Assembly: GCA_026988735.1 (NCBI GenBank)
Contig: JALSKR010000058.1
Coordinates: forward strand, 1 to 18,997
Length of the DNA: 18,997 bases
Source of the DNA: Sulfurimonas sp.
GTDB taxonomy: Bacteria > Campylobacterota > Campylobacteria > Campylobacterales > Sulfurimonadaceae
Reading direction: 5' to 3'
Shown here: positions 1,931-18,386 of the stretch, piece after piece
How the letters are laid out: the number at the start of each line of letters is the position of its first letter
Position numbering within the stretch: position 1 is the stretch's first letter
Notes under the pieces: model-generated
The model's database searches: none
Seen by the model: only the letters and a program-made list of their open reading frames with translations
What the model was told of the DNA's origin: nothing
Made by a program: the position numbers and the translations under genes

Positions 1931-1942
1931 TTTTGCTATAAT
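1931..1942 (+). promoter_or_regulatory. Extended -10 promoter for the chemoreceptor gene
   Basis: TTTTGCTATAAT has a T-rich lead, TGC and a perfect TATAAT (1937-1942), the usual Campylobacterota housekeeping promoter form. The predicted transcript start is near 1949, leaving about 26 bases of leader with a purine-rich ribosome site (CAGGGGA, 1963-1969) before the ATG at 1975. It also rules out the TTG at 1942 as a start, since that codon overlaps the -10 box. Confidence 0.75.
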
Positions 1943-1974
1943 TGTTTACAAAATTTTATATGCAGGGGATTTTT

Positions 1975-3564
1975 ATGCTCACATCGGTAAAATCAAAAGT
2001 CATTTTTTCCATTGTCACGCTCAGTATACTCGGGCTCATCGGAATGTCTTATTATCTCTCTTCAACACTCCATTCCCTCTCCAACACTGCAACAAAAAAA
2101 TCTTTAAAGATGCTGAGTGAATCCATCTTTCAGACGATGACAACAAGTATGATGATGGGTGATTCTGATGTTGTGCAAACCGCTTTTGAAAGTGCAAAAA
2201 AAATTGACGGAATTGATGACCTTAAAATTATAAAATCAAAAGCTGTTATCGCTACTTATGCTCCGGATGAAAAATACACTACAGATACTCTTCATCACGA
2301 AGCCTTGCATAATAAACGAACAAAGATTATCGAAAAAAATGAAAACGGACACCATATTATTCGTATGATAAAACCAATGGTTGCAGAAAAAAGATGTTTG
2401 CAGTGTCACTACAATGCACAAGAAGGTTATGTGCTTGGAGCAATGGATTTAACACTCTCTCTTGATAAAAATGATGAAGAGATTGCACAAACAAACACAA
2501 CACTCATCATCTCTTTGATTATCGGAGGTATCGCTTTTAGTATCGTTGCTCTCATTTTTTTCAGCCGTGAAATTTTTACGCCACTGAACAATCTCAAAGA
2601 GAGAATTGCAGACCTTGTCCGAGGAGACAAAGACCTGACAAAACGCCTCGCATACAAAAAAGGCAATGAGTTTGGTGAAACTGCCAACGAGGTCAACCGC
2701 TTTATAGAGATGATTCAGTCAACCATCAATGAAGTAAAAGCACTAGGCAATCAAAACAACGAAATTGCTTCTGAGATAGCAGACGCCTCTCATGTCATCC
2801 GAAAAGCCCTGCAACAAGAAAAAGAGATAGTCACACAAACAAGTCAAAAGAGTGAAGAGATTCAGCATATCCTAGACCAAACCATGGAGGCGGCAACAAC
2901 AACCCAAAAAACTATTGCCGAAGCAGAAACAGAGCTTGATAAAGTACACACCTCTTTAGAAAACCTCAATGCGGAAGTAGCAACTTTTGTTGCAAGTGAA
3001 AATGAACTCTCTCATGAACTTTTAGTGCTAAAAGATGATGCCAATCAAGTCAAAGATGTACTCAATGTCATTAAAGAGATTGCAGAACAGACAAACCTTT
3101 TAGCACTCAACGCTGCCATTGAAGCTGCTCGTGCTGGAGAACATGGGCGTGGTTTTGCTGTTGTTGCTGATGAAGTGAGAAAACTTGCCGAACGCACGCA
3201 AAAGAGCTTAGGAGAAATAGATATCAGTGTAAGCACCATAGTACAAGCCATCAATGATGTCAGTGACAAAATCACAACAAATGCACAAAATATAGAAGCA
3301 CTTGCGAGCATATCGGATGATGTTGCGGAGAAAATTTCCCTTACAGCAAATGCTATGCAAACATCCACACAGATGGCAAAAAAATCTAAAGATGATAGTC
3401 AAGAGATGTCTCAAAATATTCAAGAAATCATCAAATACATTAAGAAAATAGAAACACTCTCAACAGCAAATGGAACAAGTGTTATGAGCATTGAAGGTGA
3501 TCTTGAAAAACTTGTACAGGTTGCCTCTTCTTTACAAAGAACAATTGATGAGTTTAAAAGCTAA
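1975..3564 (+). CDS. Methyl-accepting chemotaxis protein with periplasmic c-type haem motif
   Basis: A 529-residue transmembrane chemoreceptor. Residues about 9-29 form the first membrane helix, followed by a periplasmic sensor of about 145 residues carrying C141-L-Q-C144-H145, a covalent haem c attachment motif. The second membrane helix (about 176-198) is followed by a HAMP domain and a cytoplasmic coiled coil. The hairpin tip is well kept ([18 protein letters not shown], about 377-394), so it should couple to CheA/CheW. No C-terminal CheR-docking pentapeptide is seen. The sensor resembles the haem-containing PAS/Cache-like (DUF3365/Tll0287-type) domains of chemoreceptors that respond to redox state or small gases. 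The ATG at 1975 is chosen because upstream starts fall in the promoter or leader. The response regulator follows after 6 bases, so the two are probably co-transcribed. Confidence 0.92.
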
Positions 3565-4314: not shown

Positions 4315-5973
4315 ATGAAAAACATTTCAATTCTTAGCATTGCAGCAGCAATGGCAATATTAAGTGGTTGTGGAAGTTCTACAGACACAACAGCAACAGA
4401 CACAGTACAGCAGGTTGCAACTGCAACAACAATTACTGTTGAGAGAGGACCGATTATTGGTGCGGATGTAATAGATGCCTCAGGACAAGTCGCAACTGAG
4501 CTGGCAAACGGAAAGTACAGTTTTGCTACACAACCGACCTACCCTATAATTGCAAGCAAGGGTGTGATTGACCTTGACAGAGACGGACAAGTAAGCCTTG
4601 GTGATGTCGTCAATGATATGAATTTAACTGCAATAAAAGGAGATGTGATAACACTTCTTACAACACTTGAGACAAATCCGCAGACACAAACAGCATTAGA
4701 TGCAATGTTAAATGATTTGAATCTGACACAAGCTGATGTATTTGAGAAAACTCCAAGTGAGTCTTTGGAAGTGGAAGCCATTTCAAATGCACTTTATAAA
4801 TATGTAAAAACTGCAAATATTAATGATTTTAACGAATTAAACGCAACGGCCCTAATACGAGATGTTGATGTTCAACAAGAATATGATAAATATATACAAG
4901 AAAATGTCCATGACACAGAACAAGAAGAAAGAGAGCTTATTGATTCTTTATTAGCAGAAAATCTTTCAATACACAAAATTGAAAATGAAGCAGAACTTGC
5001 AGATATAGAAACAGAACTTGAAAATGAAACTGATAGCGATGAACTAGAACATTTAATAACTTATCTTTTAGGTTTAAAATATGATTATGAACTTGAAGAT
5101 GGAGATATTGATTATGAAGATGAGGGAGATGATACTCAACATAATCAAGGAAAAAGTTGTGCACAATGTCATAGTGTTACAGGAACTATTGCCATAAGTG
5201 ATGATGATAGTGATGATGATGAAAATGATGATGATGGGGAGTATGTCTTTAGTTCAGGTGCCACTATCTATACACTATTACATGGTGAAGATTTAAATGC
5301 AGCACAAACCGCCAGTGGCTACAGCTTACGATTAATACTCCAAAGCGGTGCAACCGAAACTTATCAATTAGCCCGAGGAACAGGAAATGTATATGCAAAT
5401 GTAAATGCAGGATTAGGAAATTATACAGTTGAAGTTTTAGACAGAGCAGGAAATGTAGTAAATCGCTCAGCCGCAAACTCACACAATGACTCTCGACTGG
5501 ATTGTAACAGTTGTCACTCTGTCAACGGAGCAAATGGCGCACCTGGCAGAATCGTATCGTTTATGTACCAGCCCCCTGTTACAGTAGATGCAAATACTAC
5601 AGTTGTAACGCTTCCGGTGGATACAAATACAACAGTGCCTGCAGATACAAACACAACAACAACACCTGTAGATACAAATACTACAACTACACCATCATTG
5701 CCGGCGATCTCTTTTTCCAATGATGTGTTACCAATATTAAATACCAAATGTGCTTCATGTCATGGAAACAGTGGTAATTTTTCCATAACAAACAGCACGA
5801 CTCCATATGCAGGGGTAATTCCTTTTGTTGATACCGCAAACCCTACAAACTCTTCTCTTTTGCAAAAAGGAAGCGGAAGCACAGGACACGGAGGCGGTAT
5901 CATTATCAGCACTGATTCTGTAGAATATGCTACGGTTCGTGACTGGATTGCTGCCGGTGCACTTGACAATTAG
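4315..5973 (+). CDS. Tri-haem c-type cytochrome lipoprotein with Ca-binding-like loop
   Basis: A 552-residue lipoprotein: the signal sequence ends in a lipobox with C19 (LSGC). Residues 86-97 (D-L-D-R-D-G with S94 and D97) form a loop like EF-hand or dockerin calcium sites. An acidic helical region (about 190-280) leads to C282-A-Q-C285-H286, then an Asp-rich stretch, a likely beta-sandwich, and C397-N-S-C400-H401. A Thr/Asn-rich linker joins a C-terminal cytochrome domain with C479-A-S-C482-H483 and a final ATVRDWIAAGAL helix, as in PSCyt1-type cytochrome domains. Three haems are expected. The haem-sandwich-haem part is related to the 7785 protein, including a shared Ser-His (H390 here) that might be a distal ligand. 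dsbD starts 8 bases downstream. It is probably an envelope electron carrier; its partners are unknown. Confidence 0.85.
   Translation: MKNISILSIAAAMAILSGCGSSTDTTATDTVQQVATATTITVERGPIIGADVIDASGQVATELANGKYSFATQPTYPIIASKGVIDLDRDGQVSLGDVVNDMNLTAIKGDVITLLTTLETNPQTQTALDAMLNDLNLTQADVFEKTPSESLEVEAISNALYKYVKTANINDFNELNATALIRDVDVQQEYDKYIQENVHDTEQEERELIDSLLAENLSIHKIENEAELADIETELENETDSDELEHLITYLLGLKYDYELEDGDIDYEDEGDDTQHNQGKSCAQCHSVTGTIAISDDDSDDDENDDDGEYVFSSGATIYTLLHGEDLNAAQTASGYSLRLILQSGATETYQLARGTGNVYANVNAGLGNYTVEVLDRAGNVVNRSAANSHNDSRLDCNSCHSVNGANGAPGRIVSFMYQPPVTVDANTTVVTLPVDTNTTVPADTNTTTTPVDTNTTTTPSLPAISFSNDVLPILNTKCASCHGNSGNFSITNSTTPYAGVIPFVDTANPTNSSLLQKGSGSTGHGGGIIISTDSVEYATVRDWIAAGALDN
5200..5238 (+). 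repeat. In-frame GAT-rich repeat
   Basis: A run dominated by GATGATGAT blocks encodes the acidic Ser/Asp/Glu/Asn stretch between the first haem motif and the beta-sandwich of the 4315 protein. Since the unit is 3 bases, slippage would change the length of an acidic linker without shifting the frame. Confidence 0.6.
5584..5694 (+). repeat. VDTNTT-type linker repeats
   Basis: Four imperfect units begin at 5584, 5617, 5641 and 5668, encoding V/A-D-T/A-N-T-T followed by variable Thr, Val and Pro. They form a low-complexity tether between the haem-sandwich-haem part and the C-terminal cytochrome domain of the 4315 lipoprotein. Confidence 0.8.
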
Positions 5974-5981
5974 GACAGAAA

Positions 5982-7721
5982 ATGAAATATCTCTTATTTG
6001 TAGCCTTTTTTGTGCACACTCTTTTTGGTACCACAGATTTTGTGATGCCAAAGGAGGCCTTTAAACCAAGTGTTATACTGCAAGGAAAGCAACTAAAAGC
6101 CAAAATAGCACTTGCCCCTGAAATTTATCTTTATAAAAAGAGCATAAAACTTTCACTCAAAGACTCAGGTGTTCTTTTAAAAAATATAACTTTTTCTCCA
6201 AAACCGGTTGACCATGCCGGCTCTTTAGTTTTTACAAAAGATGTAACTATCAGTGCAGATATTGTAAAAACTCAAAAGTCACTGAACAAAACCACTCTTT
6301 TACTTAGCTATCAGGGATGCTCAAGCAAAGGGCTTTGCTATGAGCCACAGACTAAACAGTTTTCTTTAAATATCGCCAATATCCCAGTACAAAAGAATGC
6401 CAAAAAGACGCAAAACCATCTACGCTCAAAAGAAAATTTTGACAATGATGTAATTGCCAAAACTTTTAAAGATGGTAATATTGTCCTGATTTTATTAAGT
6501 TTTTTTGGATTTGGCTTATTACTGGCACTGACACCCTGTGTATTTCCTATGATCCCTATTCTTTCATCTATCATTATTTCCCAAGGTGAGGGAATGAATG
6601 CAAAAAGAGGCTTTATTCTCTCTTTGGTCTATATTCTGGCAATGAGTTTGACCTATACGCTTGCCGGGGTTTTTGCAGGAATTTTTGGTGAAAACATACA
6701 GGCATCTTTGCAAAACGAATGGGTTTTAACTGCTTTTTCAGCAGTGTTTGTAGTTCTTGCATTTTCCATGTTTGGATTTTTTGAGATAGGTTTGCCGTCA
6801 TCCTGGCAGAGTAAGCTCTCTCATGCATCATCAAAAGCGGAAAGTAAAGGCGGTTTTCTTGGTGTAGCCGTCATGGGATTTTTATCTGCTTTAATAGTTG
6901 GTCCCTGTATGGCACCTCCACTTACCGGAGCTTTGGTTTATATTGGTCAAACAGGCGATGCACTCCTTGGAGGTATGGCACTGTTTGTCTTAAGTCTTGG
7001 AATGGGAATGCCATTATTGCTGATTGGAATTGGTGCTGGCAAATTTATGCCAAAACCTGGTGGATGGATGAGCATAGTCTCCAAAGTGTTTGGCGTTATT
7101 ATGCTTATGACAGCAATCTGGATGCTTTCTCGAATACTTCCAGCTGCAGTGATTATGCTACTCTGGGCACTTCTTTTCATGATAACATCAATCTATCTTG
7201 GTGCCTTTGAACCGCTAGAGAGTACAAAACGCTCATGGAATGCTCTTTTTAAAGGCTTTGGCATTGTGATGTTTGTATTTGGCATTACTCTACTCATTGG
7301 GTTTATAAGTGGTGCAACAAATTTACTCAATCCTTTAGAAAAATTTACAACGACAAGCGAGAAAAAGAATCAAGATTTGATGTTTATCCAAGTAGGTTCT
7401 TTAGAGGAATTACAAAAAGTTTTTGACCAGAACAAGGGAAGAAAAATTATGGTGGATTTCTATGCCAACTGGTGTGTATCCTGCAAGGAACTTGAACACA
7501 ATACTTTTACAAATCAAGCAATACAAAAAGCACTGCAACCATTTGTTTTGGTTCAAGTTGATATAACCAAAAACTCAAAAGCACAAAAAGAGATACTCAG
7601 AAAATACAATCTTTTTGGACCTCCGGCTATTTTGTTTTTCAACGAGGATGCACAGGAGCAAAAGAAGCATAGAATAATTGGCTACAAGCCACCAGAAGAA
7701 TTTTTAAAATATTTACCATAG
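5982..7721 (+). CDS. dsbD: Thiol:disulfide interchange protein DsbD
   Basis: A full-length 579-residue DsbD, which carries electrons from cytoplasmic thioredoxin across the inner membrane to periplasmic thiol proteins. All three modules and their Cys pairs are present. After the signal peptide comes the N-terminal domain with C113 and C119 (YQGCSSKGLCYE). The multi-helix membrane domain has C186 (TPCVFPM) and C309 (GPCMAPP). The C-terminal thioredoxin-like domain has C498-V-S-C501. Placement 8 bases after a tri-haem cytochrome and upstream of a TlpA-like gene fits a role in keeping apocytochrome CxxCH cysteines reduced for haem attachment. It may also recycle the TlpA-like protein encoded at 8378. 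An AGGACA ribosome site precedes the ATG. Confidence 0.95.
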   Translation: MKYLLFVAFFVHTLFGTTDFVMPKEAFKPSVILQGKQLKAKIALAPEIYLYKKSIKLSLKDSGVLLKNITFSPKPVDHAGSLVFTKDVTISADIVKTQKSLNKTTLLLSYQGCSSKGLCYEPQTKQFSLNIANIPVQKNAKKTQNHLRSKENFDNDVIAKTFKDGNIVLILLSFFGFGLLLALTPCVFPMIPILSSIIISQGEGMNAKRGFILSLVYILAMSLTYTLAGVFAGIFGENIQASLQNEWVLTAFSAVFVVLAFSMFGFFEIGLPSSWQSKLSHASSKAESKGGFLGVAVMGFLSALIVGPCMAPPLTGALVYIGQTGDALLGGMALFVLSLGMGMPLLLIGIGAGKFMPKPGGWMSIVSKVFGVIMLMTAIWMLSRILPAAVIMLLWALLFMITSIYLGAFEPLESTKRSWNALFKGFGIVMFVFGITLLIGFISGATNLLNPLEKFTTTSEKKNQDLMFIQVGSLEELQKVFDQNKGRKIMVDFYANWCVSCKELEHNTFTNQAIQKALQPFVLVQVDITKNSKAQKEILRKYNLFGPPAILFFNEDAQEQKKHRIIGYKPPEEFLKYLP

Positions 7722-7727
7722 AGACGA

Positions 7728-7763
7728 AATCTTCATCAATTTTTCATAATTGATGCATAAAAT
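7728..7763 (+). promoter_or_regulatory. Candidate activator site and promoter for the nine-gene operon
   Basis: The layout matches 4249-4284 base for base in spacing: AATCTTCAT, 4 variable bases, TTTTCATAA, 8 variable bases and a -10-like TAAAAT (7758-7763). The half-sites TTCAT are at 7732-7736 and 7743-7747. By my count 22-23 of 36 bases agree, all in the half-sites and the -10, with none in the two spacers. The predicted start near 7770 leaves a short leader with AGGAGG (7775-7780). Regulator binding is inferred. Confidence 0.6.
7734..7755. repeat. 7-bp inverted repeat within the promoter
   Basis: CATCAAT (7734-7740) and ATTGATG (7749-7755) are perfect inverted copies around 8 bases. There is no following T-run, so it is not a convincing terminator. 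It overlaps the second TTCAT half-site and is absent from the sister promoter, so it could be a separate operator for a dimeric regulator or chance. Confidence 0.45.
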
Positions 7764-7784
7764 AACAAAAACAAAGGAGGCTTG

Positions 7785-8366
7785 ATGAGATACTGGATTA
7801 TGGCAGTAATAATCCCTGTAGCACTGTTCTTAAACGGATGCGGTGAAGATGACGGGGGAGAAGAAAATACAACCACTGCAAGCGGTTGGCATTTTCAGGG
7901 GCGCGACTGTTTGGCGTGTCACAATGTTGATCTTGGGATAGACAAACATCTTGTTTTTGGAGGAACACTTTTTAAAAGTTACAATACCACCGATACAGAT
8001 GACCTCAACCAGGTATGTGATGCAGATTTGGCTGTAGAATTTTTGGATAACAGCTGGAATGTTGTCTATTCTACAAACAGCTATTATGATGAAAATTCAA
8101 AAGGAAACAATGGAAGAGGTAATATTTTTTTGCTTGACAGACTTTTTAATGCTACGCTCAACGGTTCCTATACAGTAAGGATAATTGAAAGAGTATCCGG
8201 ACGCACAATGGCACAGTCACGACAGGCGTCACATAGTTTTAGTGGCGGAGAATATTCTATCGATAATCCACAGAATTTTTCAAATCGTTTATCGTGTAAT
8301 GCCTGCCACAATGGAAAGACAACCGATTTTTTGAATGCATCAATCAATGCTGATTTATGTAAATAA
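7785..8366 (+). CDS. Di-haem c-type lipoprotein
   Basis: A 193-residue lipoprotein (lipobox LNGC) with two haem attachment motifs, C42-L-A-C45-H46 and C171-N-A-C174-H175, flanking about 125 residues of probable beta-sandwich. The segment GSYTVRIIERVSG...SRQASH aligns with GNYTVEVLDRAGN...SAANSH of the 4315 lipoprotein, and both end in Ser-His (H150 here), so the two are likely paralogues. ATG 7785 is preferred over the TTG at 7782 because AGGAGG ends at 7780, leaving a workable 4-base gap. It is the first gene of the nine-gene operon and is followed after 11 bases by a TlpA-like thioredoxin. It probably carries electrons at a lipid-anchored site in the envelope; no specific family name is recognised. 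Confidence 0.82.
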   Translation: MRYWIMAVIIPVALFLNGCGEDDGGEENTTTASGWHFQGRDCLACHNVDLGIDKHLVFGGTLFKSYNTTDTDDLNQVCDADLAVEFLDNSWNVVYSTNSYYDENSKGNNGRGNIFLLDRLFNATLNGSYTVRIIERVSGRTMAQSRQASHSFSGGEYSIDNPQNFSNRLSCNACHNGKTTDFLNASINADLCK

Positions 8367-8377
8367 GGAGAGAAATA

Positions 8378-8872
8378 ATGAAAAAAATAATATTAACAGC
8401 AATAATATGCCTCACGCTTTTTGCCGCACCCAGAGAGGGCGACAAACAGGTAGCCTATACACTGCCAATGCTTTACAACCCTGCAAAAGTACTCAGTGAC
8501 AGTAATACGAGGGGCAAGGTGGTACTGCTCAATCTTTGGGCAAGCTGGTGCAGTGGATGTCAAGAGGAGATGCCTCTTTTTGTTTCTTTGCAAAAACGGC
8601 ACAACAAAAAAGATTTTATAGTTGTTGCTGCAAGCATAGACAGTGTAGATGAAAATGCAAAAGAGTTTTTAGACAGAGTTGATCCGGACAAAGATCTCAT
8701 TGCCCTGTATGATGTAAAAAAGAGTTTGCCAAAGGCGTACAGATGTCCGGGGCTTCCGTCTTCATTTCTGATTGACAAAGAAGGAAAAATTGCGGCAGTG
8801 TACATAGGCAGTCTTGATAAAGAGATGATAAAGAATTTGGAGAAAAAGATAGCTGAGTTGGAAAGGAAATAG
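8378..8872 (+). CDS. TlpA/ResA-like periplasmic thioredoxin
   Basis: A 164-residue exported thioredoxin-fold protein: signal peptide (MKKIILTAIICLTLFA) and a redox site WASWC58-S-G-C61 ahead of helix 1. The later GLPSSFLID segment carries the expected cis-Pro loop. The CSGC site lacks the Pro of the common CxPC form. An extra Cys occurs just before the cis-Pro loop (YRCPGLP). TlpA/ResA/CcmG-type proteins reduce disulfides in the periplasm, often in apocytochromes, and are recharged by DsbD or CcdA; a full DsbD is encoded at 5982. Its operon neighbours are a di-haem lipoprotein upstream and a Cys-containing DUF4266 lipoprotein 2 bases downstream, both plausible clients. AAGGAG precedes the start. 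Confidence 0.9.
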   Translation: MKKIILTAIICLTLFAAPREGDKQVAYTLPMLYNPAKVLSDSNTRGKVVLLNLWASWCSGCQEEMPLFVSLQKRHNKKDFIVVAASIDSVDENAKEFLDRVDPDKDLIALYDVKKSLPKAYRCPGLPSSFLIDKEGKIAAVYIGSLDKEMIKNLEKKIAELERK

Positions 8873-8874
8873 AG

Positions 8875-9093
8875 ATGAAGATACTTTTTCTAGTGCTTTT
8901 ATTGCTATTTATAACAGGCTGCAGTGAAAAACTTGTCCGGGTTATGCCGTATGAAAAAGAGTTTTTTGCGCAAGACAAGATGAGCCTTTCTCCGATTGCC
9001 GAACGTGCCGAGCAGGAGGGACATATTTTTCTTATCCGTGAAGCGAGCGCCGGAGGAGAGAGTAGTTTTCAAGGGGGTTGCGGATGTCGTTAA
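8875..9093 (+). CDS. Small DUF4266-type lipoprotein
   Basis: A 72-residue protein with a lipoprotein signal (LLFITGC, lipid-anchored C16), leaving about 57 mature residues. The short body with MPYEKEFFAQDKM, an HIFLIREASAGGE segment and the terminal GGCGCR matches what I know of DUF4266 (PF14086), whose members end in a Gly/Cys motif. The function is unknown. C69 and C71 at the very end could bind a metal, form a disulfide or be a TlpA client. It starts 2 bases after the thioredoxin gene and overlaps the DUF3570 gene by 10 bases; DUF4266 and DUF3570 genes commonly travel together. Confidence 0.8.
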   Translation: MKILFLVLLLLFITGCSEKLVRVMPYEKEFFAQDKMSLSPIAERAEQEGHIFLIREASAGGESSFQGGCGCR

Positions 9094-10202
9094 AATATTT
9101 CATATGGATGATGATTTCTCTTGTTGCACTTGAGATAAGTTCCTTGGCATCGAGCCTGAAAGACAGTATGAGTTTTGGGATAAACAGCTACAGTGACAAT
9201 GCAGATGTACAGGTTTATTCACCGACATTTTCTTTGTTTAAAAAAGTATCGCATCAGTGGATGCTTGGATTTAAAATGAGAATTGACACGATTACGGCAG
9301 CAAGTATCAGTAACGGTGCCAATTCACAAAGGGTGGATGCAGTTACAGGCGCATCACGGGCAGAAGGGACACTCTTTGATGATGTCCGCTATGCACCGAC
9401 TCTTATGGCTACATATGATGACGGAAAGAATATGCTAAGCTTTGGCGCGTATTACTCAAAAGAGGCAGATTATACCGGCAGAGCAGTCTTTGCAAACTAT
9501 GTACGTCAACTCAATGAGCAAAATACTGCACTTGGAATCGGTATTTCACAATCGTCTGACTACTGGTATCCTGTATTTGACAGAGAGTTGCCTCGCGATG
9601 ACAGGAAAGAGGGGAAAATTGACTTCTCTATCAATCAGCTCATTACACCGGGATTTTCTCTTCAGGGGGTTTTCTCTTACATGTACAGTGAAGGTTTTTT
9701 ATCTTCCCCGTATCATTATGTGTTGCAAGATGGTTTTGCAAGGTTTGAAAACTATCCTCAGACACGAACAGGAAAAGCATTTGCAATCAAGGGAGTCTAT
9801 CTCCTTAATCCAGACAATGCAATGAACTTTTCTTATCGGTATTATACAGATGACTGGGATATAAAATCACATACAGTCAATATAGAAGAGTTGCACGATT
9901 TTAGTTCACATTTTACATCCGGCCTTAGATTGCGCTATTATACGCAGACAAAGTCCAATTTTGTCAAAGATATCAACAGCTACAGTGTCAATGACCCTTA
10001 CTTTGCCATAGACTACCGTATGAGTGCCTTTGACTCCTATACAATTGGAATACCATTGATTTATAAAACAAGTAAAGGCGACAAGGTGACTGCAAGCATT
10101 GACTATTATCAAACCACGACAAATGATTATATCAAAAACTGGTATGGCGTGAACAGCATAAAGGCTGTTTTTACCACGCTCACCTATGAGTTTGAGTATT
10201 AA
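9084..10202 (+). CDS. DUF3570 outer-membrane beta-barrel protein with ApbE-like flavinylation motif
   Basis: A 372-residue protein with a signal peptide (about 1-24) and long runs of alternating polar/hydrophobic, aromatic-rich strands ending in LTYEFEY, as expected of an outer-membrane barrel. The RIDTITAAS segment and overall layout match DUF3570 (PF12094), which has no established function. Residues 85-91 read D-A-V-T-G-A-S, close to the D-x-x-(S/T)-G-A-(T/S) target of ApbE flavin transferases. The apbE-like gene overlaps its 3' end. ATG 9084 is chosen over TTG 9078 because AAGGGGG ends at 9077 directly ahead of it. Flavinylation would be unusual for a barrel and is inferred, not shown. 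Confidence 0.8.
   Translation: MSLKYFIWMMISLVALEISSLASSLKDSMSFGINSYSDNADVQVYSPTFSLFKKVSHQWMLGFKMRIDTITAASISNGANSQRVDAVTGASRAEGTLFDDVRYAPTLMATYDDGKNMLSFGAYYSKEADYTGRAVFANYVRQLNEQNTALGIGISQSSDYWYPVFDRELPRDDRKEGKIDFSINQLITPGFSLQGVFSYMYSEGFLSSPYHYVLQDGFARFENYPQTRTGKAFAIKGVYLLNPDNAMNFSYRYYTDDWDIKSHTVNIEELHDFSSHFTSGLRLRYYTQTKSNFVKDINSYSVNDPYFAIDYRMSAFDSYTIGIPLIYKTSKGDKVTASIDYYQTTTNDYIKNWYGVNSIKAVFTTLTYEFEY
9336..9356 (+). other. Candidate FMN-attachment motif DAVTGAS
   Basis: These seven codons (residues 85-91 of the DUF3570 protein) resemble the FMN-acceptor sequence of RnfG/NqrC-like and other ApbE substrates, in which FMN is phosphoester-linked to the final Thr or Ser. Ser91 (9354-9356) would be the acceptor. 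Confidence 0.5.
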
Positions 10203-11124
10203 AATGGGTTTTTTAAGAAGAGGACTCAAAGCCAAAGTGATGAGCACAGAGCTCATCATGGAGGCCAATGTTTCTCGCAAAATTCTCTTTGAAGCGCTTG
10301 ATACTGTCAAGCGTTTTGAAGAGAGATTTTCTGCCTACAATGAGGATTCCCTTGTTTCTCTCATCAATAAAAACGCAGGGATTGAAGCAGTTACATGTAA
10401 CCAAGAGGAGTGTGAACTTTTTTCAGAAGCACTCAAAATCGCACAACGCTCAAAAGGAAAATTTGATCCCACAATTGGTGTTTTAACACAGGGACTTTAC
10501 GGTTTTGGAAAAACAAACAAGAAGATACCTGCAAAACAAGAGCTCCAAAAAACAAAACATCTTGTCGATTACCGACAGTTACATGTAGAAGCAAACAAGG
10601 TATTTCTTGCAAAAAAAGGAATGCGTCTGGATCTTGGAGGGATAGGCAAAGGGTATATTGCTCAAAAAGTATTTTTATTTTTACAAAGCAAAGGAGCGAC
10701 AAAAATCCTTGTCAATGCAGGGGGTGAGATACTTACACAGGGAAAAAATTACCGGGTTGCCATTACCAACCCTTTTGACATACAAAAATATCTTGGTGTC
10801 ATAGAAACAAAAAACACTCCTTTTAGTATCTCTACAAGTGGAGACTATGAACGCTATATCGGTTCGAAAAAAAATCATCATATATTAGATAATCAGACTG
10901 CTACACAAAACCATTACTACAGTAGTCTGACAGTTTTAAAAAACGGTATAACGGCAACACTTTTGGATGCGGTTGCCACTATAGCTTTCAACACCCCTGC
11001 AGATGAATTGAAAAACTTGTCAAAAGAGTATGATGTTGCTATAATTGCCGTAACGGATGAAGGGGAGCTTTTATTTGAAAATTTTAAAAATTTAGATATA
11101 AAAGCATGTGAAATTTTTCCATAA
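10186..11124 (+). CDS. apbE: ApbE-family FAD:protein FMN transferase without signal peptide
   Basis: ApbE moves FMN from FAD to a Thr/Ser in target proteins, with Mg. The family segments are present in 312 residues: FSAYNEDSLVSLIN (48-61), FDPTIG (93-98), LDLGGIGKGY (148-157), VNAGGE (176-181), STSGDYER (216-223) and LLDAVATIA (259-267, D261 and T265 as likely metal ligands). The usual HxIDPxTG is altered to HHILDNQTAT. No signal peptide or lipobox is visible, and an in-frame stop at 10159 prevents a longer N-terminus, so the enzyme may be cytoplasmic. ATG 10186 overlaps the DUF3570 gene; ATG 10204, one base after that stop, is an alternative giving 306 residues. The adjacent barrel with DAVTGAS is the obvious candidate substrate. 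Confidence 0.88.
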   Translation: MSLSIKMGFLRRGLKAKVMSTELIMEANVSRKILFEALDTVKRFEERFSAYNEDSLVSLINKNAGIEAVTCNQEECELFSEALKIAQRSKGKFDPTIGVLTQGLYGFGKTNKKIPAKQELQKTKHLVDYRQLHVEANKVFLAKKGMRLDLGGIGKGYIAQKVFLFLQSKGATKILVNAGGEILTQGKNYRVAITNPFDIQKYLGVIETKNTPFSISTSGDYERYIGSKKNHHILDNQTATQNHYYSSLTVLKNGITATLLDAVATIAFNTPADELKNLSKEYDVAIIAVTDEGELLFENFKNLDIKACEIFP

Positions 11125-11132
11125 GGATTCTC

Positions 11133-12140
11133 TTGAAAATATTTCTTTTATTTATATGTCTCTTTGCTGCCTTACTTGCGCAAGATTCCCAAACCGAGAA
11201 GAATGAATATACTCTGGGAGAGGGTGTGCAAGTCGGCACACTCCCTTTGTACCTTGGTGGGTACTTCTCTGTTGACTATACAAAAAAACAAAATAGTGAA
11301 CGCTATAGAATTGATGATATCGCTTTTCTTGCCTATGGAGACTATAACAAATTTTCTTATCTCTTAGAAATGGAATATAAAGAGTTTTATACCTATACAA
11401 ATTTTAATACAACGCATACTATTGAAAGGGATACACGATTACATACAGAACGGCTTTATATTGACTATACTGTTAATGAAAATTTTATGCTTCGCGGTGG
11501 AAAATATTACTCACCTATAGGTTTTTGGAACTTACTACCAATCAATGTTCTTCGTGATACAACTTCTTACCCTGTAAGTACAAGAATTCTTTTCCCAAAA
11601 TTTACTACAGGATTGTATGCTTCATATAATCAATACAGTGATAATGAATTGCAGATAGATATTATATTACAGCACAATAACGACATCGATGCAAATTACA
11701 ACAACTATATAACTGATGAACATTACGGAGCAGGTGTATCATATGCTCACAATGATCTTAAGTTAAAACTCAATATTGGAATGTTTGACAATGTCGTCTC
11801 AGATACACTCTCCACACATTTGTATTATGCAGTTGCATCGTTGCAGTACGATACGGAGCACTACAAAATAACAAGTGAATTTGGCACACAAAGGAATAGT
11901 AAGGGATTCACGACAAAATATGCAGCATATCTGCAAGGAGGGTATCGCTTTAGTGACAAGCATCTGGGAATTGTCCGCTTAGAGTCATACAGTCAAACAG
12001 ATACAAATCGCAAAGACAATATAGCCATTGTCGGTTATACATACAGACCGCTTTATCCGGTGGCATTCAAGGCGGAGTATCAGTTCCATTCATTGCATGA
12101 TGAAAATCAGTTTTTATTTTCATGGTCGGTGTTGTTTTGA
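11133..12140 (+). CDS. Outer-membrane porin, phosphate-selective-porin-like
   Basis: A 335-residue exported barrel: signal peptide (MKIFLLFICLFAALLA), then strands rich in Tyr/Phe throughout, and a C-terminal FLFSWSVLF ending in Phe, the signal read by the outer-membrane assembly machinery. The GGYFSVDY opening and the RGGKYYSPIGFWN segment resemble the OprP/OprO-type porin family, but the solute is not determined. The start is TTG with AAGGA 5 bases upstream. It sits 8 bases after the ApbE gene and overlaps a short phosphate-binding-protein-like gene, a pairing that suggests uptake or sensing of an anion. Confidence 0.78.
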   Translation: MKIFLLFICLFAALLAQDSQTEKNEYTLGEGVQVGTLPLYLGGYFSVDYTKKQNSERYRIDDIAFLAYGDYNKFSYLLEMEYKEFYTYTNFNTTHTIERDTRLHTERLYIDYTVNENFMLRGGKYYSPIGFWNLLPINVLRDTTSYPVSTRILFPKFTTGLYASYNQYSDNELQIDIILQHNNDIDANYNNYITDEHYGAGVSYAHNDLKLKLNIGMFDNVVSDTLSTHLYYAVASLQYDTEHYKITSEFGTQRNSKGFTTKYAAYLQGGYRFSDKHLGIVRLESYSQTDTNRKDNIAIVGYTYRPLYPVAFKAEYQFHSLHDENQFLFSWSVLF

Positions 12141-12544
12141 AAAAAAGATATCTATTCCTCATCATTTTTATCATTGCAACTGTAAACGCAAAAGAGTATG
12201 CCGTAGTGGTACAAAAAGGGTTTGCAAATATCTCTGTTGGAAAAATAAAAGCGATATATCTCAAAAAACTCAAGTACCTTGGTGATACAAAACTGGTGCC
12301 CATTAATCTTGGTGCACAAAATTCTGTGCGGAGAAGTTTTGAAAAAAAAGTATTAAAAATCAACCATTCACGCTTAAAATCCTACTGGATTAAGCAACAC
12401 TATCTTGGACAGAGACCGCCAATAACTCTTAAATCCCAAGCCGCCGTAAATGCTTTTGTGAAAAAAGTTTTTGGGGCAATCGGGTATCTTGAAGCGTCAA
12501 AAGCTGATAAAGATTTAAAAATTATTTACAGATGGAGTGACTGA
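12122..12544 (+). CDS. Short periplasmic PstS-like substrate-binding protein
   Basis: A 140-residue exported protein (hydrophobic signal, likely cleaved after VNA) resembling the phosphate ABC transporter substrate-binding fold. The VGKIKAIYLKK...PINL segment, RRSFEKKVL, YWIKQHYLGQRPP and FGAIGYLEA all match family positions. At about 120 mature residues it is roughly half a normal binding protein, as in short stand-alone members found beside sensor kinases. No ABC transporter genes are nearby, so a sensory role feeding the kinase at 13511 is more likely than transport. Start choice is open: ATG 12122 inside the porin gene, or TTG 12137 overlapping its TGA. The second gives a cleaner MKKRYLF signal; neither has a clear ribosome site. 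Confidence 0.75.
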   Translation: MVGVVLKKRYLFLIIFIIATVNAKEYAVVVQKGFANISVGKIKAIYLKKLKYLGDTKLVPINLGAQNSVRRSFEKKVLKINHSRLKSYWIKQHYLGQRPPITLKSQAAVNAFVKKVFGAIGYLEASKADKDLKIIYRWSD

Positions 12545-13518: not shown

Positions 13519-15535
13519 TTTTTTTAAAAAATCCTTACGCAACAAACTGCTTGTCAGTTTTTTGTTTGTCGGTTTGCTTCCTTTTGCAATCTTGCTTGTA
13601 TATACCATATTTTTAAGCCAGACAAAAATTGTCAACCAAACGATTAAAGAGCAGTTTTACAGGGCAAATGATGTAAAAGGCTTAATTAAACACCATATTA
13701 CCAATCTCAAGAAAGAGATTGAATTTATTGCCTCTTTGGATTTAATGGACGATATTATTACAGATGATATTGACAAACGTATTTCTATTCTTTTAAGCAA
13801 AAAAGCAACAGATTTCAGTCTTGATTTGTCACTTTTTGTAGTAAACAACAATGGAACTATTATTGCAAGTTCACATAATGAACTTCTTCTAAGCTCTTTT
13901 GAAAAATATAAACAACTCACTCAAAACAGTTTTATTGAAGGAGAATATCTTTATATCAGCTCTCAGATTCTCTCATCATTTGACAGAACAAAGAAACTTG
14001 GCTATCTGGTCTTGAAGTATAACCTGCAAAATCTCACAAGATATCTTTCTCATCAGGAAAATATACACTCCTATATCATTGACAGCAAAACCGGTATTAT
14101 TATAGGTGGCACGCAGGCTTTACAAGTAGATTTAAAAAAAGACAAAGAGAGTATTATTACAGACAAACATGTGATTGTGTATGAACGGTTCGACGGTGTC
14201 TTAAAAAACAGTTATCTTGTTTATGGAGTAGACAAAGCAGAAGCATTAAAGTTTTTATATGAATTTGTCCGCTTTATGCTGCTCATTTCTCTCTTTATTA
14301 CAATTTTTGTCGTTGTCATAGCCTTACGATACTCTAAAAGCATTGTATCACCAATTGAAAACCTGACAAAAGCAACACAGAAAATTACTCAAGAGCAAGA
14401 CTATACTGCATCTTTACCTATTGAATCCGAGGATGAGATAGCAACGCTTACTGCTTCATTTAATGAAATGGTACAAACAACAGCTAACGCACTCAAAAAC
14501 CTCGAAGAAGAGAACAAACTGCGCCTCAAGCGTTTTATACAGCTTATTGAAGTCTTTAATAAAATTATTCAAACGCAGAGTGAAGATGAGTGTATTGCGG
14601 TTTCAATAAAGCTGATTCAACAAATCACCAAGAGGGATGACCTTGTTTTCTCAAAAGTGCATACAGACAACTCTATAGATTTATATGTAACAGATTTTGA
14701 ACATAACAAGAAAATCTATTTTGGCTCTATCACTTTGGCTCTTGAGAGTTTTTCGGATGAAAATGAAAAGCGTTTTTACAACTCCATCGCAACAATGATA
14801 GCATTGCAACTCGACAGAATACGCCTTATCCGCAGAACAATGGCCGCATCACAGGCAAAATCTGCTTTTATCTCAAATATGTCCCATGAACTCCGAACAC
14901 CGTTGAATGCGATTATAGGTTTTTCCCAGTTTTTAATTGCCTATGAGGAGCTGACAAAAGATCAACAGGAGACAGTAGGAAATATAGAATCTTCAGCACA
15001 TTATCTCCTTGGAATGATAAACGATATTTTAGATATTGCCAAGATTGAAGCTGGGAAGATGGAAGCACATATTGAGGATGTTGCCCTCAAAAGTGTTGTA
15101 CAAAGCAGTTATGAGATGCTAAAACCGCTTGCAGATGAGAAAAATTTGGAATTTATCCTTGATATGCAGGAGTATACCCTGCAAACGGTGCGTACCGACC
15201 CGAAAATGTTTCAGCAGATTATTACCAATCTTCTCTCCAATGCTATTAAATTTACACAAAAGGGTTTTGTCAAAATAAAACTTTACAATACCAAAGAAAA
15301 GGTCTGTGTATATGTACAAGACAGCGGCATAGGGATAGACAAAGATGATTTGGAACAACTCTTCAGTGACTTTACACAGGTTGAAAATGTGATGCAAAAA
15401 ACACACAAGGGGACAGGACTCGGGCTCTCTTTAAGCAAAAAGATGGCACAGATTCTGGGCGGTGATGTAACCCTTCGCAGTGAGGGAAAAGGCAAAGGGA
15501 GTCAGGCAGAATTTTGTTTGAAACTAGAGCCTTAG
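13511..15535 (+). CDS. Membrane sensor histidine kinase (Cache-HAMP-HisKA-HATPase)
   Basis: A 674-residue kinase with a membrane helix near residues 13-35, a large periplasmic Cache-like sensor (about 36-255) and a second membrane helix (about 256-277). A HAMP domain follows, then a coiled linker with a weak GAF-like region (about 340-440). The dimerisation/phosphotransfer domain has H459 (SHELRTP), and the ATPase domain has the N box (NLLSNAIKF), DSGIGI and GTGLGLS. There is no receiver or Hpt module. It overlaps the HD-GYP regulator gene by 8 bases, its likely partner. The PstS-like protein two genes upstream may present a ligand to the sensor. Its stop overlaps the convergent helicase stop by 4 bases, leaving no intergenic terminator. 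Confidence 0.93.
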   Translation: MINFFKKSLRNKLLVSFLFVGLLPFAILLVYTIFLSQTKIVNQTIKEQFYRANDVKGLIKHHITNLKKEIEFIASLDLMDDIITDDIDKRISILLSKKATDFSLDLSLFVVNNNGTIIASSHNELLLSSFEKYKQLTQNSFIEGEYLYISSQILSSFDRTKKLGYLVLKYNLQNLTRYLSHQENIHSYIIDSKTGIIIGGTQALQVDLKKDKESIITDKHVIVYERFDGVLKNSYLVYGVDKAEALKFLYEFVRFMLLISLFITIFVVVIALRYSKSIVSPIENLTKATQKITQEQDYTASLPIESEDEIATLTASFNEMVQTTANALKNLEEENKLRLKRFIQLIEVFNKIIQTQSEDECIAVSIKLIQQITKRDDLVFSKVHTDNSIDLYVTDFEHNKKIYFGSITLALESFSDENEKRFYNSIATMIALQLDRIRLIRRTMAASQAKSAFISNMSHELRTPLNAIIGFSQFLIAYEELTKDQQETVGNIESSAHYLLGMINDILDIAKIEAGKMEAHIEDVALKSVVQSSYEMLKPLADEKNLEFILDMQEYTLQTVRTDPKMFQQIITNLLSNAIKFTQKGFVKIKLYNTKEKVCVYVQDSGIGIDKDDLEQLFSDFTQVENVMQKTHKGTGLGLSLSKKMAQILGGDVTLRSEGKGKGSQAEFCLKLEP

Positions 15536-18327
15536 CGTGGTAAACGCCGATGCCCTCTTTTATGCACATAGTTCTTTTTAAAGCACTTCTGGCAGATACT
15601 GTATTTTGAATTGACTGGTAGAGGCGCGCTGCAAAGCTTACATGTCTGTGTGAGTGCAGTCTGTCTGAGTGTCTCTTCTATATATTTGTTTAAAACACCT
15701 CTGTAGGCTCTTGCCTTGTTTTCATCGACAAAGTAGTCATTAAAACGATAGCTCAGCCACAGATACAGCGAAATCTCTTTGACCATATCTTCTGCACGCA
15801 ACAACTCTTCGGAGGTTTGCGCATACGAGCCTGTCAGTTTCGGTGCATGATAATAGACAGGCTCTTTTTTCTCCAAAGCATTGATGTAGCGCTCATAGGC
15901 ACTGATAATATAGGCAGATTTAAGTGTCAATGGCGCACAGGCAAGATGATACTTTGTCGCAATGTCCAGATCATAACTGTCCACAATGCGTGAAGCTTCG
16001 AGCATATCATCTAAGGATGCCGCATAAAAAGGACCGTCAAAAACCATATTTTTTATAAAAAAGCGTAAAATCTCTTCCAAAGAATTCTCTTCCAAAATCG
16101 TGCTGACAAGTTTTATATGTTCCAAATTTGCCATCACTTTAAAAGGTACTTTTATCTCTTTTGCCTGCTTGGTAAAATTCTTTTTGACTACATGTAAAGC
16201 ATCCCCGTGCAAAGCCCCCACATAACCGTTTTCATGCAGACCGTAACGCCCTGCCCGTCCGGCAATTTGGTGCACCTCTGAGGGGAAAAGATTTCGCTGT
16301 ATGATGCCGTCAAACTTCTCGGCTTTAGAAAACAGAACGGTTTTTATCGGCAGATTCATCCCCATGGCTATCGCATCAGTGGCAACAAGAATCTGAGTTT
16401 CTCCCTCACGAAAACGCCTTGCCTCTTCCCGTCTGACTTCGGGAGAGAGGTTGCCATAGACAACACTCACTTCAAAATCTTTTGAAAAATTCTGCTTGAG
16501 ACGCAGAACATCTTTTCTGCTAAAAGCGATGATTGCCGTTGCCGCTTCTACATCTTTTGGATGTGTCGGTTTTTCCAGAAGTTCCAACGGATTTTTTCTC
16601 TCAAACTCCCGTATCTCAAGCTCCTCACCCAGATACTCTGCAAGTGCAATAATCGCATCTTTAACATTGGGTGAACCTGTCATTATCACCTCTTTTGCTG
16701 GCGCACCGATGATGGCATTTGCCCATGCCCAGCCGCGGTCACGGTCATCTATCATCTGTACCTCATCTATGACACAGACATCCACATCCACATCATAATT
16801 CATCATCTCTATTGTTGAACTGATATGTGTTGCCTCATCATCAAGTATCTGCTCTTCTCCTGTTATGAGTGAGCTCTCTATTCCCTCCGCTTTGAGTGTT
16901 TCGTACCCTTCAAGTGCCAAAAGACGCAAAGGTGCAAGATAATACCCTGTGTCTGCCTCTTTGAGTTTTTGCATCGCCTCATAGGTCTTTCCACTGTTTG
17001 TAGGTCCGATATGTAAAATAAGCTTTCTTTGCATACTCCTCGCAATCGGAAAAAGATTTTTAAAATCACGGATTGTTCGTGCAAGCAGTGCTTCACGCTG
17101 TTTTTTAATCAGTTCATCATGTATGGAGTGCAAAAAGCGTCGTGTTATTTTTCTGTGAATTTTTGGCGTTATACTCAGGGTTTGACCAAGTAGTTCAAAA
17201 AGATACTCATAGACTCTCGCATGCAGTTCTTCTTGAGTAAAATGTAAAAGCTGGGCATACTCTTCACACTCTTTTACCAAAGCATCGAGTGTAAGTAAAA
17301 ATTCATCCTCCTGCTCTTTTTTCACTTCTGCCAAAACAGCATCAAAATTAAACCGTTTTGAGTGCCATATCTCTTCTAAAAGACCTTCGAGTTCTACATG
17401 TAACTCCAGTTTGTAAGCAAATCTTTTCTCACTGTAGGGCAACAAAACCTCTTCATTAATACGGATGAGAACCTCTTCATCATGAAGTGCAATGCCCTCG
17501 GCATCTATCTTTGACTTAATAATATTTTTTAAAACTCTGTGCGATATAAGCGGATAACTTACTTTGGATTTTGGAGGGGATGCACGTAGAGAATCCAAAA
17601 TCTCTTTTGTACTCAAATAGGCATGCGGATATTTCAAAGAGTGCAAAAAATTCTCAATACTCTGCTGTTTTTGCGCAACTACTGCAAGCTTATCTTCTCC
17701 TATTCTTTGCACTATCTCTTCAAACGGTGCTGTTTCAAGATACTCATAATCATACGGCTTGGTAACAAGTGTCAAAATCTTATGAAAACTCTGCTCATAA
17801 AGTTCATACTTGAGTGATGCATTAAATTCAAAACGATCATCCAAATCAAAAAACCCTTCAAGTTCACGCTCAAGTTTCTCTTTTTTCATCTCAAAACGAA
17901 TATGACGCAGAGATGATTCCATCTTCTCTATCGTTATTTTTTTGCTTCTTACATGTAAATAGGCCTCGCGCAGACGCACTGCCTCTTCTTGAGTAGCGTC
18001 AAGCTCTTCTAAAAGTGCATTGATTTTGTCTTCTCTGTCAAAAACCACTTCTTTTTTTGGTCTCTCAGACTTATACACCCGCCCATCACTCTCAAAAAAG
18101 TTCAAAATATCCTGACGCATACTACTTTCGGCTTCACTCCAAATCATACGAAGTGTTTTTACCATCAAAGTTTTATCATGGTTTATATCATATATGCCCA
18201 GTGTTGCAAAAAGTTCACTGAGTGTTTTACTCTCTACGCGTTCTATCCCCACATCAAAGGGGTCATCGTCAAAATATTTTCTAATTCTTTGGTTAATTTT
18301 ACTGTTTTTTTTATTTTTTCTTGCCAT
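15532..18327 (-). CDS. Suv3-like superfamily 2 RNA helicase with C-terminal zinc ribbon
   Basis: A 931-residue protein. The helicase core carries GPTNSGKT (441-448, Walker A), D521-E-V-Q-M (motif II), MTGSP, a GNLSPEVRREEARRF segment, ILVATDAIAMGMNLP and HQIAGRAGRYG (from H686). These match the Suv3 helicase family (mitochondrial RNA-degradosome subunit and bacterial relatives) better than DEAD-box proteins. About 430 N-terminal residues, charged and largely helical, match no domain I can name. The C-terminus has a C896-x2-C899-x12-C912-x2-C915 zinc-ribbon-like motif and a basic tail. A role in RNA unwinding or turnover is inferred. The ATG at 18327 is preferred to the TTG at 18354, which lies upstream of the -10 box and has no ribosome site. 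This ATG also has no ribosome site and lies 6 bases after the -10. Confidence 0.88.
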   Translation of the reverse strand: MARKNKKNSKINQRIRKYFDDDPFDVGIERVESKTLSELFATLGIYDINHDKTLMVKTLRMIWSEAESSMRQDILNFFESDGRVYKSERPKKEVVFDREDKINALLEELDATQEEAVRLREAYLHVRSKKITIEKMESSLRHIRFEMKKEKLERELEGFFDLDDRFEFNASLKYELYEQSFHKILTLVTKPYDYEYLETAPFEEIVQRIGEDKLAVVAQKQQSIENFLHSLKYPHAYLSTKEILDSLRASPPKSKVSYPLISHRVLKNIIKSKIDAEGIALHDEEVLIRINEEVLLPYSEKRFAYKLELHVELEGLLEEIWHSKRFNFDAVLAEVKKEQEDEFLLTLDALVKECEEYAQLLHFTQEELHARVYEYLFELLGQTLSITPKIHRKITRRFLHSIHDELIKKQREALLARTIRDFKNLFPIARSMQRKLILHIGPTNSGKTYEAMQKLKEADTGYYLAPLRLLALEGYETLKAEGIESSLITGEEQILDDEATHISSTIEMMNYDVDVDVCVIDEVQMIDDRDRGWAWANAIIGAPAKEVIMTGSPNVKDAIIALAEYLGEELEIREFERKNPLELLEKPTHPKDVEAATAIIAFSRKDVLRLKQNFSKDFEVSVVYGNLSPEVRREEARRFREGETQILVATDAIAMGMNLPIKTVLFSKAEKFDGIIQRNLFPSEVHQIAGRAGRYGLHENGYVGALHGDALHVVKKNFTKQAKEIKVPFKVMANLEHIKLVSTILEENSLEEILRFFIKNMVFDGPFYAASLDDMLEASRIVDSYDLDIATKYHLACAPLTLKSAYIISAYERYINALEKKEPVYYHAPKLTGSYAQTSEELLRAEDMVKEISLYLWLSYRFNDYFVDENKARAYRGVLNKYIEETLRQTALTQTCKLCSAPLPVNSKYSICQKCFKKNYVHKRGHRRLPR

Positions 18328-18333
18328 AAAAAG

Positions 18334-18342
18334 ATTATAACA
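18334..18342 (-). promoter_or_regulatory. Extended -10 of the helicase gene, implying a leaderless mRNA
   Basis: Read on the minus strand this is TGTTATAAT, a TGn plus perfect TATAAT. Six bases (CTTTTT) then separate it from the ATG at 18327, so transcription would begin at or next to the start codon. No ribosome-binding site is present. Confidence 0.65.
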
Positions 18343-18386
18343 CAAGCTTAACAATACAACTTCAACAAAGTATAAAAGAGCTGGTA

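Follow-up and report, generated by a model that had tools for sequence, protein, structure and literature searches.

The closest described system is that of Chlorobium luteolum, whose DUF3570 protein became flavinylated in E. coli when produced there together with its own ApbE (Méheust et al. 2021, eLife, PMC8238504). According to the parts of that report that deal with DUF3570, loss of the flavin signal required changing the serines at both sites. The pellet contained most of the protein, which was denatured before being purified, and the constructs followed a strategy similar to that of signal-truncated ones. The same article already described clusters encoding DsbD, thioredoxin, DUF4266, DUF3570 and ApbE, and it is the only open-licence full text in PubMed Central in which DUF3570 and DUF4266 were found. 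The core idea of a flavinylated DUF3570 protein is not new, having been published there in 2021. In the portions of the ApbE literature consulted, exported ApbEs go with exported substrates and cytosolic ApbEs with cytosolic ones. Cytosolic ApbEs with cytosolic substrates are documented in one article, which also reports flavinylation of about 50% after a G-to-A change in the motif of another substrate (PMC12052999, as excerpted).

Apparently new are the placement of the acceptor sites on the surface side, the presence of a third site in one paralogue, and an ApbE partner that lacks a signal peptide, none of which was found in print. DUF3570 is absent from a 2024 structural paper (PMC11334425). 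Among titles and abstract openings in open-licence PubMed Central, nothing related was found on a flavinylated beta-barrel elsewhere, and no open-licence paper there was found for ApbE with Sulfurimonas.

Gene order around the DUF3570 gene

The window, meaning the whole stretch of 18,997 nucleotides of Sulfurimonas sp. DNA that was analysed, comes from an assembly in 291 contigs that is 80% complete (GCA_026988735.1). From 4315 to 11124 its genes all run in one direction, on the plus strand, and are spaced by at most 60 bases or overlap. The series starts with a cytochrome lipoprotein carrying three CxxCH motifs at residues 282, 397 and 479 (4315..5973; weak cytochrome c matches, lipobox by eye), followed by DsbD, a thiol electron carrier that crosses the inner membrane (5982..7721; PF02683, 306 bits, with DsbD_N and thioredoxin domains). 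A second cytochrome lipoprotein has CxxCH motifs at residues 43 and 172 (7782..8366; weak Cytochrome_C7 match, lipobox by eye), and next to it lies an exported TlpA/ResA-like thioredoxin with a CSGC motif (8378..8872; Redoxin and AhpC-TSA matches, CxxC at 58). Between the thioredoxin and DUF3570 genes sits a gene overlooked in the original prediction, which encodes a small DUF4266 lipoprotein ending in GGCGCR (8875..9093; PF14086, 51 bits). A C-terminal CXC is found in DUF4266 at 79 of 80 loci, the exception being L062. The DUF3570 gene (9084..10202) encodes 372 residues and scores 172.2 bits against PF12094, for which the cut-off is 25 bits; PF12094 is the sole family matched at E values up to 0.01, with no match to PF04205. 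Among the matches listed, its best relative is from Sulfurimonas sediminis, at 96% identity; a further protein search that used an alignment gave largely the same set. The last gene of the series encodes an ApbE FMN transferase that lacks a signal peptide (10186..11124; PF02424, 210.7 bits), and its reading frame shares 17 bases with that of DUF3570, in agreement with the original report of an overlapping ApbE gene. By Pfam, DUF4266, thioredoxin, DsbD and apbE are all present in the cluster around DUF3570.

Several other genes of the window deserve mention in their own right. A methyl-accepting chemotaxis protein (1942-3564) matches Mcp40H-20_sensor, with a weak Tll0287-like match, and has a CLQCH haem motif in its sensor region; the gene is followed by an OmpR-type regulator, and the protein might sense redox state on behalf of the cluster. 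Within 11133-12544 are encoded a 335-residue protein resembling a second outer-membrane barrel and a 140-residue exported protein that by eye is similar to phosphate-binding proteins. Pfam gave no match to either, and their homologues lie downstream of DUF3570 and ApbE in some Sulfurimonas loci but apart from them in others. The minus strand encodes a 940-residue helicase with SUV3-type domains (15532-18354); helicases of this type are best known from mitochondria.

Candidate acceptor sites and the barrel model

The original prediction had flagged D85-A-V-T-G-A-S91 (site 2; 9336..9356, plus strand) as an FMN acceptor and had noticed no other candidate. The motif is present, and its TGAS (88-91) is the one strict [ST]GA[ST] in the protein. 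The claim that it stands alone failed, since D68-T-I-T-A-A-S74 (site 1; 9285..9305, plus strand) lies 17 residues upstream in the same protein and is more conserved. Site 1 is a G-to-A form of the motif, reading TAAS at the conserved place. Conservation was assessed in an alignment of 210 DUF3570 sequences. The window type supplied 164 of them (34 loci, 129 database proteins and the window protein), 11 represented a second type from Campylobacterota, and 35 belonged to neither; duplicates and fragments (L001, L002, L039, L040, L042, L087, L089-L091) were excluded from the site counts. Every window-type sequence has D68 and a serine or threonine at position 74 (164/164 for each), and position 72 is A in 155, S in nine and G in none. 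The strict pattern D..[ST][GAS]A[ST] fits site 1 in 123/164; the remainder mostly read DAIAAAS, the fourth position not always being S or T. In the 46 sequences of other types, D68 is again invariant, and S/T74 is kept in 44, with L077 and L080 as exceptions. A second D..[STA][GAS]A[ST] within 60 residues past site 1 occurs in 120/164 window-type sequences, and in 75 a second motif has the form [ST]GA[ST]. The original prediction named lack of conservation as its refuting condition; by that measure the flagged motif fails, being missing in 44 of the 164, whereas S74 passes. Judged from the alignment, site 1 (S74) is the predicted main FMN site and S91 an optional one. In the window protein, S91 probably carries covalent FMN besides S74.

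Shuffling the DUF3570 sequence 20,000 times produced one or more strict D..[ST]GA[ST] in 0.3% of the versions and multiple D..[ST][GAS]A[ST] (at least two) in 0.005%. Together with the conservation in the alignment, these frequencies make a chance origin of the motifs very improbable. No strict D..[ST][GS]A[ST] was found in the 17 other window reading frames scanned. The looser [ST]GA[ST] occurred twice in the 552-residue cytochrome and once in DsbD; those of the cytochrome were considered as extra sites and set aside, being at best patchy among the first 60 homologues listed.

An AlphaFold2 model of the window protein, built with 113 aligned sequences (mean pLDDT 89.3, pTM 0.82), has 16 strands, which are joined by loops of 4, 29, 2, 11, 22, 4, 27 and 15 residues on one side of the predicted barrel and by turns of 4, 3, 4, 2, 4, 4 and 5 residues on the opposite side. 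Searches of the model with Foldseek and VIA-align returned generic outer-membrane barrels, which is uninformative on function. MtrB was not among the matches listed, which has no bearing either way. The even strand number, short turns confined to one side, signal peptide and C-terminal aromatic residue are those of outer-membrane beta-barrels, and with the model and the fold matches they bear out the outer-membrane barrel originally proposed. In outer-membrane barrels generally, both termini are periplasmic, so the long loops of the model would be extracellular. Both S74 and S91 fall within the 29-residue loop 2 (residues 71-99; 9294..9380, plus strand), flanked by strands 59-70 and 100-112. 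As to the placement of residue 91, which the original prediction had singled out for modelling, the model puts it in this extracellular loop, in the low-confidence middle portion where pLDDT is below 50 (residues 77-94).

With sidedness taken from strand topology and not from coordinates, the top 40 positions by conservation include 37 in extracellular loops or extracellular strand halves, the three others being N147, Q185 and the last residue. The conserved set includes D68, R102, E127, D129, R228, Y251, R252, Y254, D256, W258, H263, R284 and F293. The surface loops of porins, in contrast, are usually their most variable part, and the conserved extracellular side therefore suggests that the modelled barrel has its working site at the outer mouth. 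From the model and the conservation, the acceptor sites would lie at the outer mouth as well.

Three motifs are present in a paralogue encoded at eleven loci of the Campylobacterota type (L050, L054, L058-L061, L070, L082, L084-L086), where the third lies roughly 90 to 115 residues past the second. A model of the L060 protein (pLDDT 83.4) places the third site between strands 155-171 and 189-208, in predicted extracellular loop 4. L046 also has three motifs in a different arrangement. As a separate observation, the gene directly after DUF3570 in three loci (L056:6963-7838, L074:6964-7842 and L053:5053-6297) specifies a protein rich in Gly and Asp that has a flavinylation-like motif; among these motifs are DTVSGAS and DSVSSAS, with TGAS in L053, and Pfam gave no match to the proteins of L056 and L074.

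ApbE partners without a signal peptide

Signal peptides of ApbE were called by hydropathy scoring of the possible start codons upstream of the ApbE domain and not with SignalP. In the window ApbE, 18 residues lie between the ATG and the conserved MST, and no possible start yields a hydrophobic stretch. The protein keeps the usual active-site blocks, and solved ApbEs match it at up to 92 bits. Among 30 DUF3570-linked ApbEs of Campylobacterota (phylum as named in the records, window included), 28 have no signal-like stretch, and in 19 the open frame ahead of the domain is 20 residues or shorter; in L008 and L013 a signal is possible if translation starts inside DUF3570. All six Aquificota partners lack a signal, as do five ApbEs outside the 30 whose records name no phylum (L011, L019, L025, L084, L085). 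A signal-like stretch was found in 7/7 partners from Bacteroidota (two), Latescibacterota (one), Chlorobiota (one), Calditrichota (one) and Ignavibacteriota (two), and in 5/10 from Pseudomonadota; cytosolic loading therefore cannot be general. Partners with unclear starts (four from Acidobacteriota, L049 and L068) were counted on neither side. In one Chlorobium locus that also has a DUF3570 match (L157), the ApbE apparently has no signal, by eye. By a similar hydropathy measure, 78 of 90 DUF3570 reading frames have a signal-like stretch.

In a quick tree of 67 ApbE rows, the signal-less forms make up two separate groups of 16 and 31 rows, which requires at least two changes. L008 and L013 were set by hand to "no signal" for this tree, and it omits duplicates of loci already included, L014, L039 and L113, as well as the unclear starts L064, L068, L076, L079 and L083. 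The second signal-less clade has KE in place of KG and frequently G where D is usual, and its ApbE activity is less sure because of these unusual active-site letters. ApbE is found in the flank of 64/84 DUF3570 loci, and at most loci containing both genes a signal-less apbE overlaps or abuts DUF3570. For the 20 loci with no ApbE in the flank, 18 genomes were searched (L040 and L042 were excluded) and 16 contained one.

Additional evidence came from the ApbE complement of whole genomes. FMN_bind was found in seven of 20 genomes with DUF3570, and DUF2271 in none. Five of those seven have an ApbE at a distance of about 1 kb from FMN_bind. Where ApbEs near FMN_bind had their sequence read (L100, L112, L114, L116), all four have a signal peptide, and the FMN_bind proteins of these genomes have hydrophobic N-termini, by eye. 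In another seven of the 20 (G044, G304, G307, G310-G313), a lone, signal-less ApbE is present with neither FMN_bind nor DUF2271; G044 is 99% complete, the other six carry no completeness figure, and in G313 the ApbE and DUF3570 lie on different contigs. Among 298 Campylobacterota genomes, DUF3570 scored above the cut-off in five and below it in one, and ApbE was found in 31. All five with DUF3570 above the cut-off have a signal-less ApbE, although in G249 the two are on separate contigs, with DUF3570 at a contig end. For 25 Campylobacterota genomes free of DUF3570 (G272 excluded), the ApbE has a signal in 21, is signal-less in three and is ambiguous in one (L139); the signals of L122, L130 and L138 were judged by eye, and that of L130 resembles a twin-arginine signal. 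A Fisher test across the genomes gave p 0.0007, to be taken as a guide only since the genomes are not independent; in it, G272, its sequence unread, was coded as signal-less and L122, L138, L130 and L139 as with signal. The three signal-less cases (L144-L146) come from one genus. In these genomes the ApbE gene adjoins one for an EF-hand-like Ser/Gly-rich protein, with SGAS in L144 and SSAS in L145, which may be chance in low-complexity sequence. In the genome of the window itself, contig C50 encodes a second, exported ApbE (L003:1417-2352), which adjoins a multihaem cytochrome on the other strand. FMN_bind and DUF2271, considered as the true ApbE substrates, were not found in this genome, the assembly of which is 80% complete.

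Proposed loading route, alternatives and related systems

Taken together, the analysis lends good support to a flavin-loaded DUF3570 barrel at this locus, as originally suggested, with the flagged S91 as the second, less conserved site, and FMN would be transferred to the protein by ApbE. Given that the neighbouring ApbE is signal-less, we infer that the DUF3570 precursor is flavinylated in the cytosol. This ApbE would attach FMN to the unfolded precursor, and the FMN-bearing chain would then cross SecYEG and fold into the outer membrane. Bonardi and colleagues are said to have observed, in 2011, preproteins with sizable conjugates passing SecYEG. By the most likely route, electrons would pass from DsbD to the thioredoxin, then to the CXC tail of DUF4266 and on to the surface flavin; judging from the gene neighbourhood, the haem lipoproteins perhaps take part, and transfer from the flavin to an external acceptor would be the least certain step. 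On balance, we favour by a little a 16-strand barrel with a surface flavin on S74, loaded in the cytosol before Sec export and serving as the outer element of the DsbD/thioredoxin/DUF4266/DUF3570/ApbE system. The broader proposal that such cytosol-flavinylated, Sec-exported barrels carry up to three loop FMNs as a thiol-fed outlet, with compartment-specific ApbEs for different substrates, is more tentative, falling a little short of even. Against the favoured explanation, site 1 carries A for the consensus G, the genome also has an exported ApbE, and one three-genome genus has a signal-less ApbE with no DUF3570 match. If the explanation is correct, a bulky redox cofactor would be attached ahead of Sec export, and flavins on extracellular loops would offer Gram-negative bacteria a path for electrons to the surface that needs no multihaem cytochrome within the barrel.

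It is very improbable that the window DUF3570 carries no flavin and that the motifs are chance or structural. The departure of site 1 from the consensus G and the 44/164 close relatives with no second D..[STA][GAS]A[ST] would fit such an explanation, but D68 and S/T74 are universal in the window type and S/T74 persists in 44/46 more distant relatives, the motifs are rare in shuffles, the adjacent ApbE has the usual active-site blocks, and flavinylation of a family member is reported in print (PMC8238504, in part). Periplasmic loading by an exported ApbE from another locus of the genome, with the neighbouring signal-less ApbE serving a cytosolic substrate or another role, is unlikely. While the exported ApbE on contig C50, the exported DUF3570 partners in several phyla and the known cytosolic ApbE-substrate pairs (PMC12052999, as excerpted) are consistent with such loading, it sits poorly with the seven of 20 genomes whose lone ApbE is signal-less and which have neither FMN_bind nor DUF2271. 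The exported ApbEs read beside FMN_bind have an exported partner of their own, and the overlap or abutment of signal-less apbE with DUF3570 at most loci with both also argues against periplasmic loading.

The direction of electron flow is a separate matter. Surface flavins might draw electrons from outside, with reduced sulfur or iron as examples of a donor, or might reduce ferric iron so that it can be taken up, instead of serving outward respiration; this reading is doubtful, but has something in its favour. Many DUF3570 hosts are named Sulfurimonas, Sulfurovum, Thiogranum or Chlorobium, which are sulfur-oxidising genera, and VIT1 iron transporters occur in 25 clusters according to the published survey, the relevant sections of which nonetheless describe DsbD and thioredoxin as normally feeding electrons to the periplasm (PMC8238504). 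Moreover, there is no iron transporter among the Pfam matches of the window.

The cytosol-loaded surface flavin favoured here can be set against several known systems. The C. luteolum system resembles this one in Pfam family, neighbours, acceptor-serine region and cognate ApbE; the differences are that site 1 here reads TAAS and not [ST]GA[ST] and that the present cluster contains two haem lipoproteins. The C. luteolum report describes two sites, and an extracellular-loop location, a third site and a cytosolic ApbE were not met in the sections consulted (PMC8238504). The cytosolic ApbE of Klebsiella pneumoniae also lacks a signal peptide, and the genome encodes an exported ApbE as well, but the substrate of the cytosolic enzyme, as described in the excerpted text, is a soluble fumarate reductase that stays in the cytosol, whereas the presumed substrate here is an exported outer-membrane protein (PMC12052999). 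The FMN_bind proteins NqrC and RnfG (PF04205) likewise have a Ser/Thr acceptor in a D-x-x-[ST]-G-A-[ST]-like motif and an ApbE partner, but the folds are unrelated and DUF3570 has no PF04205 domain. Porin-cytochrome conduits of the MtrCAB type also combine redox cofactors with an outer-membrane barrel. In MtrCAB a larger barrel encloses a multihaem cytochrome, whereas here the flavins would be carried on a loop of the barrel itself.
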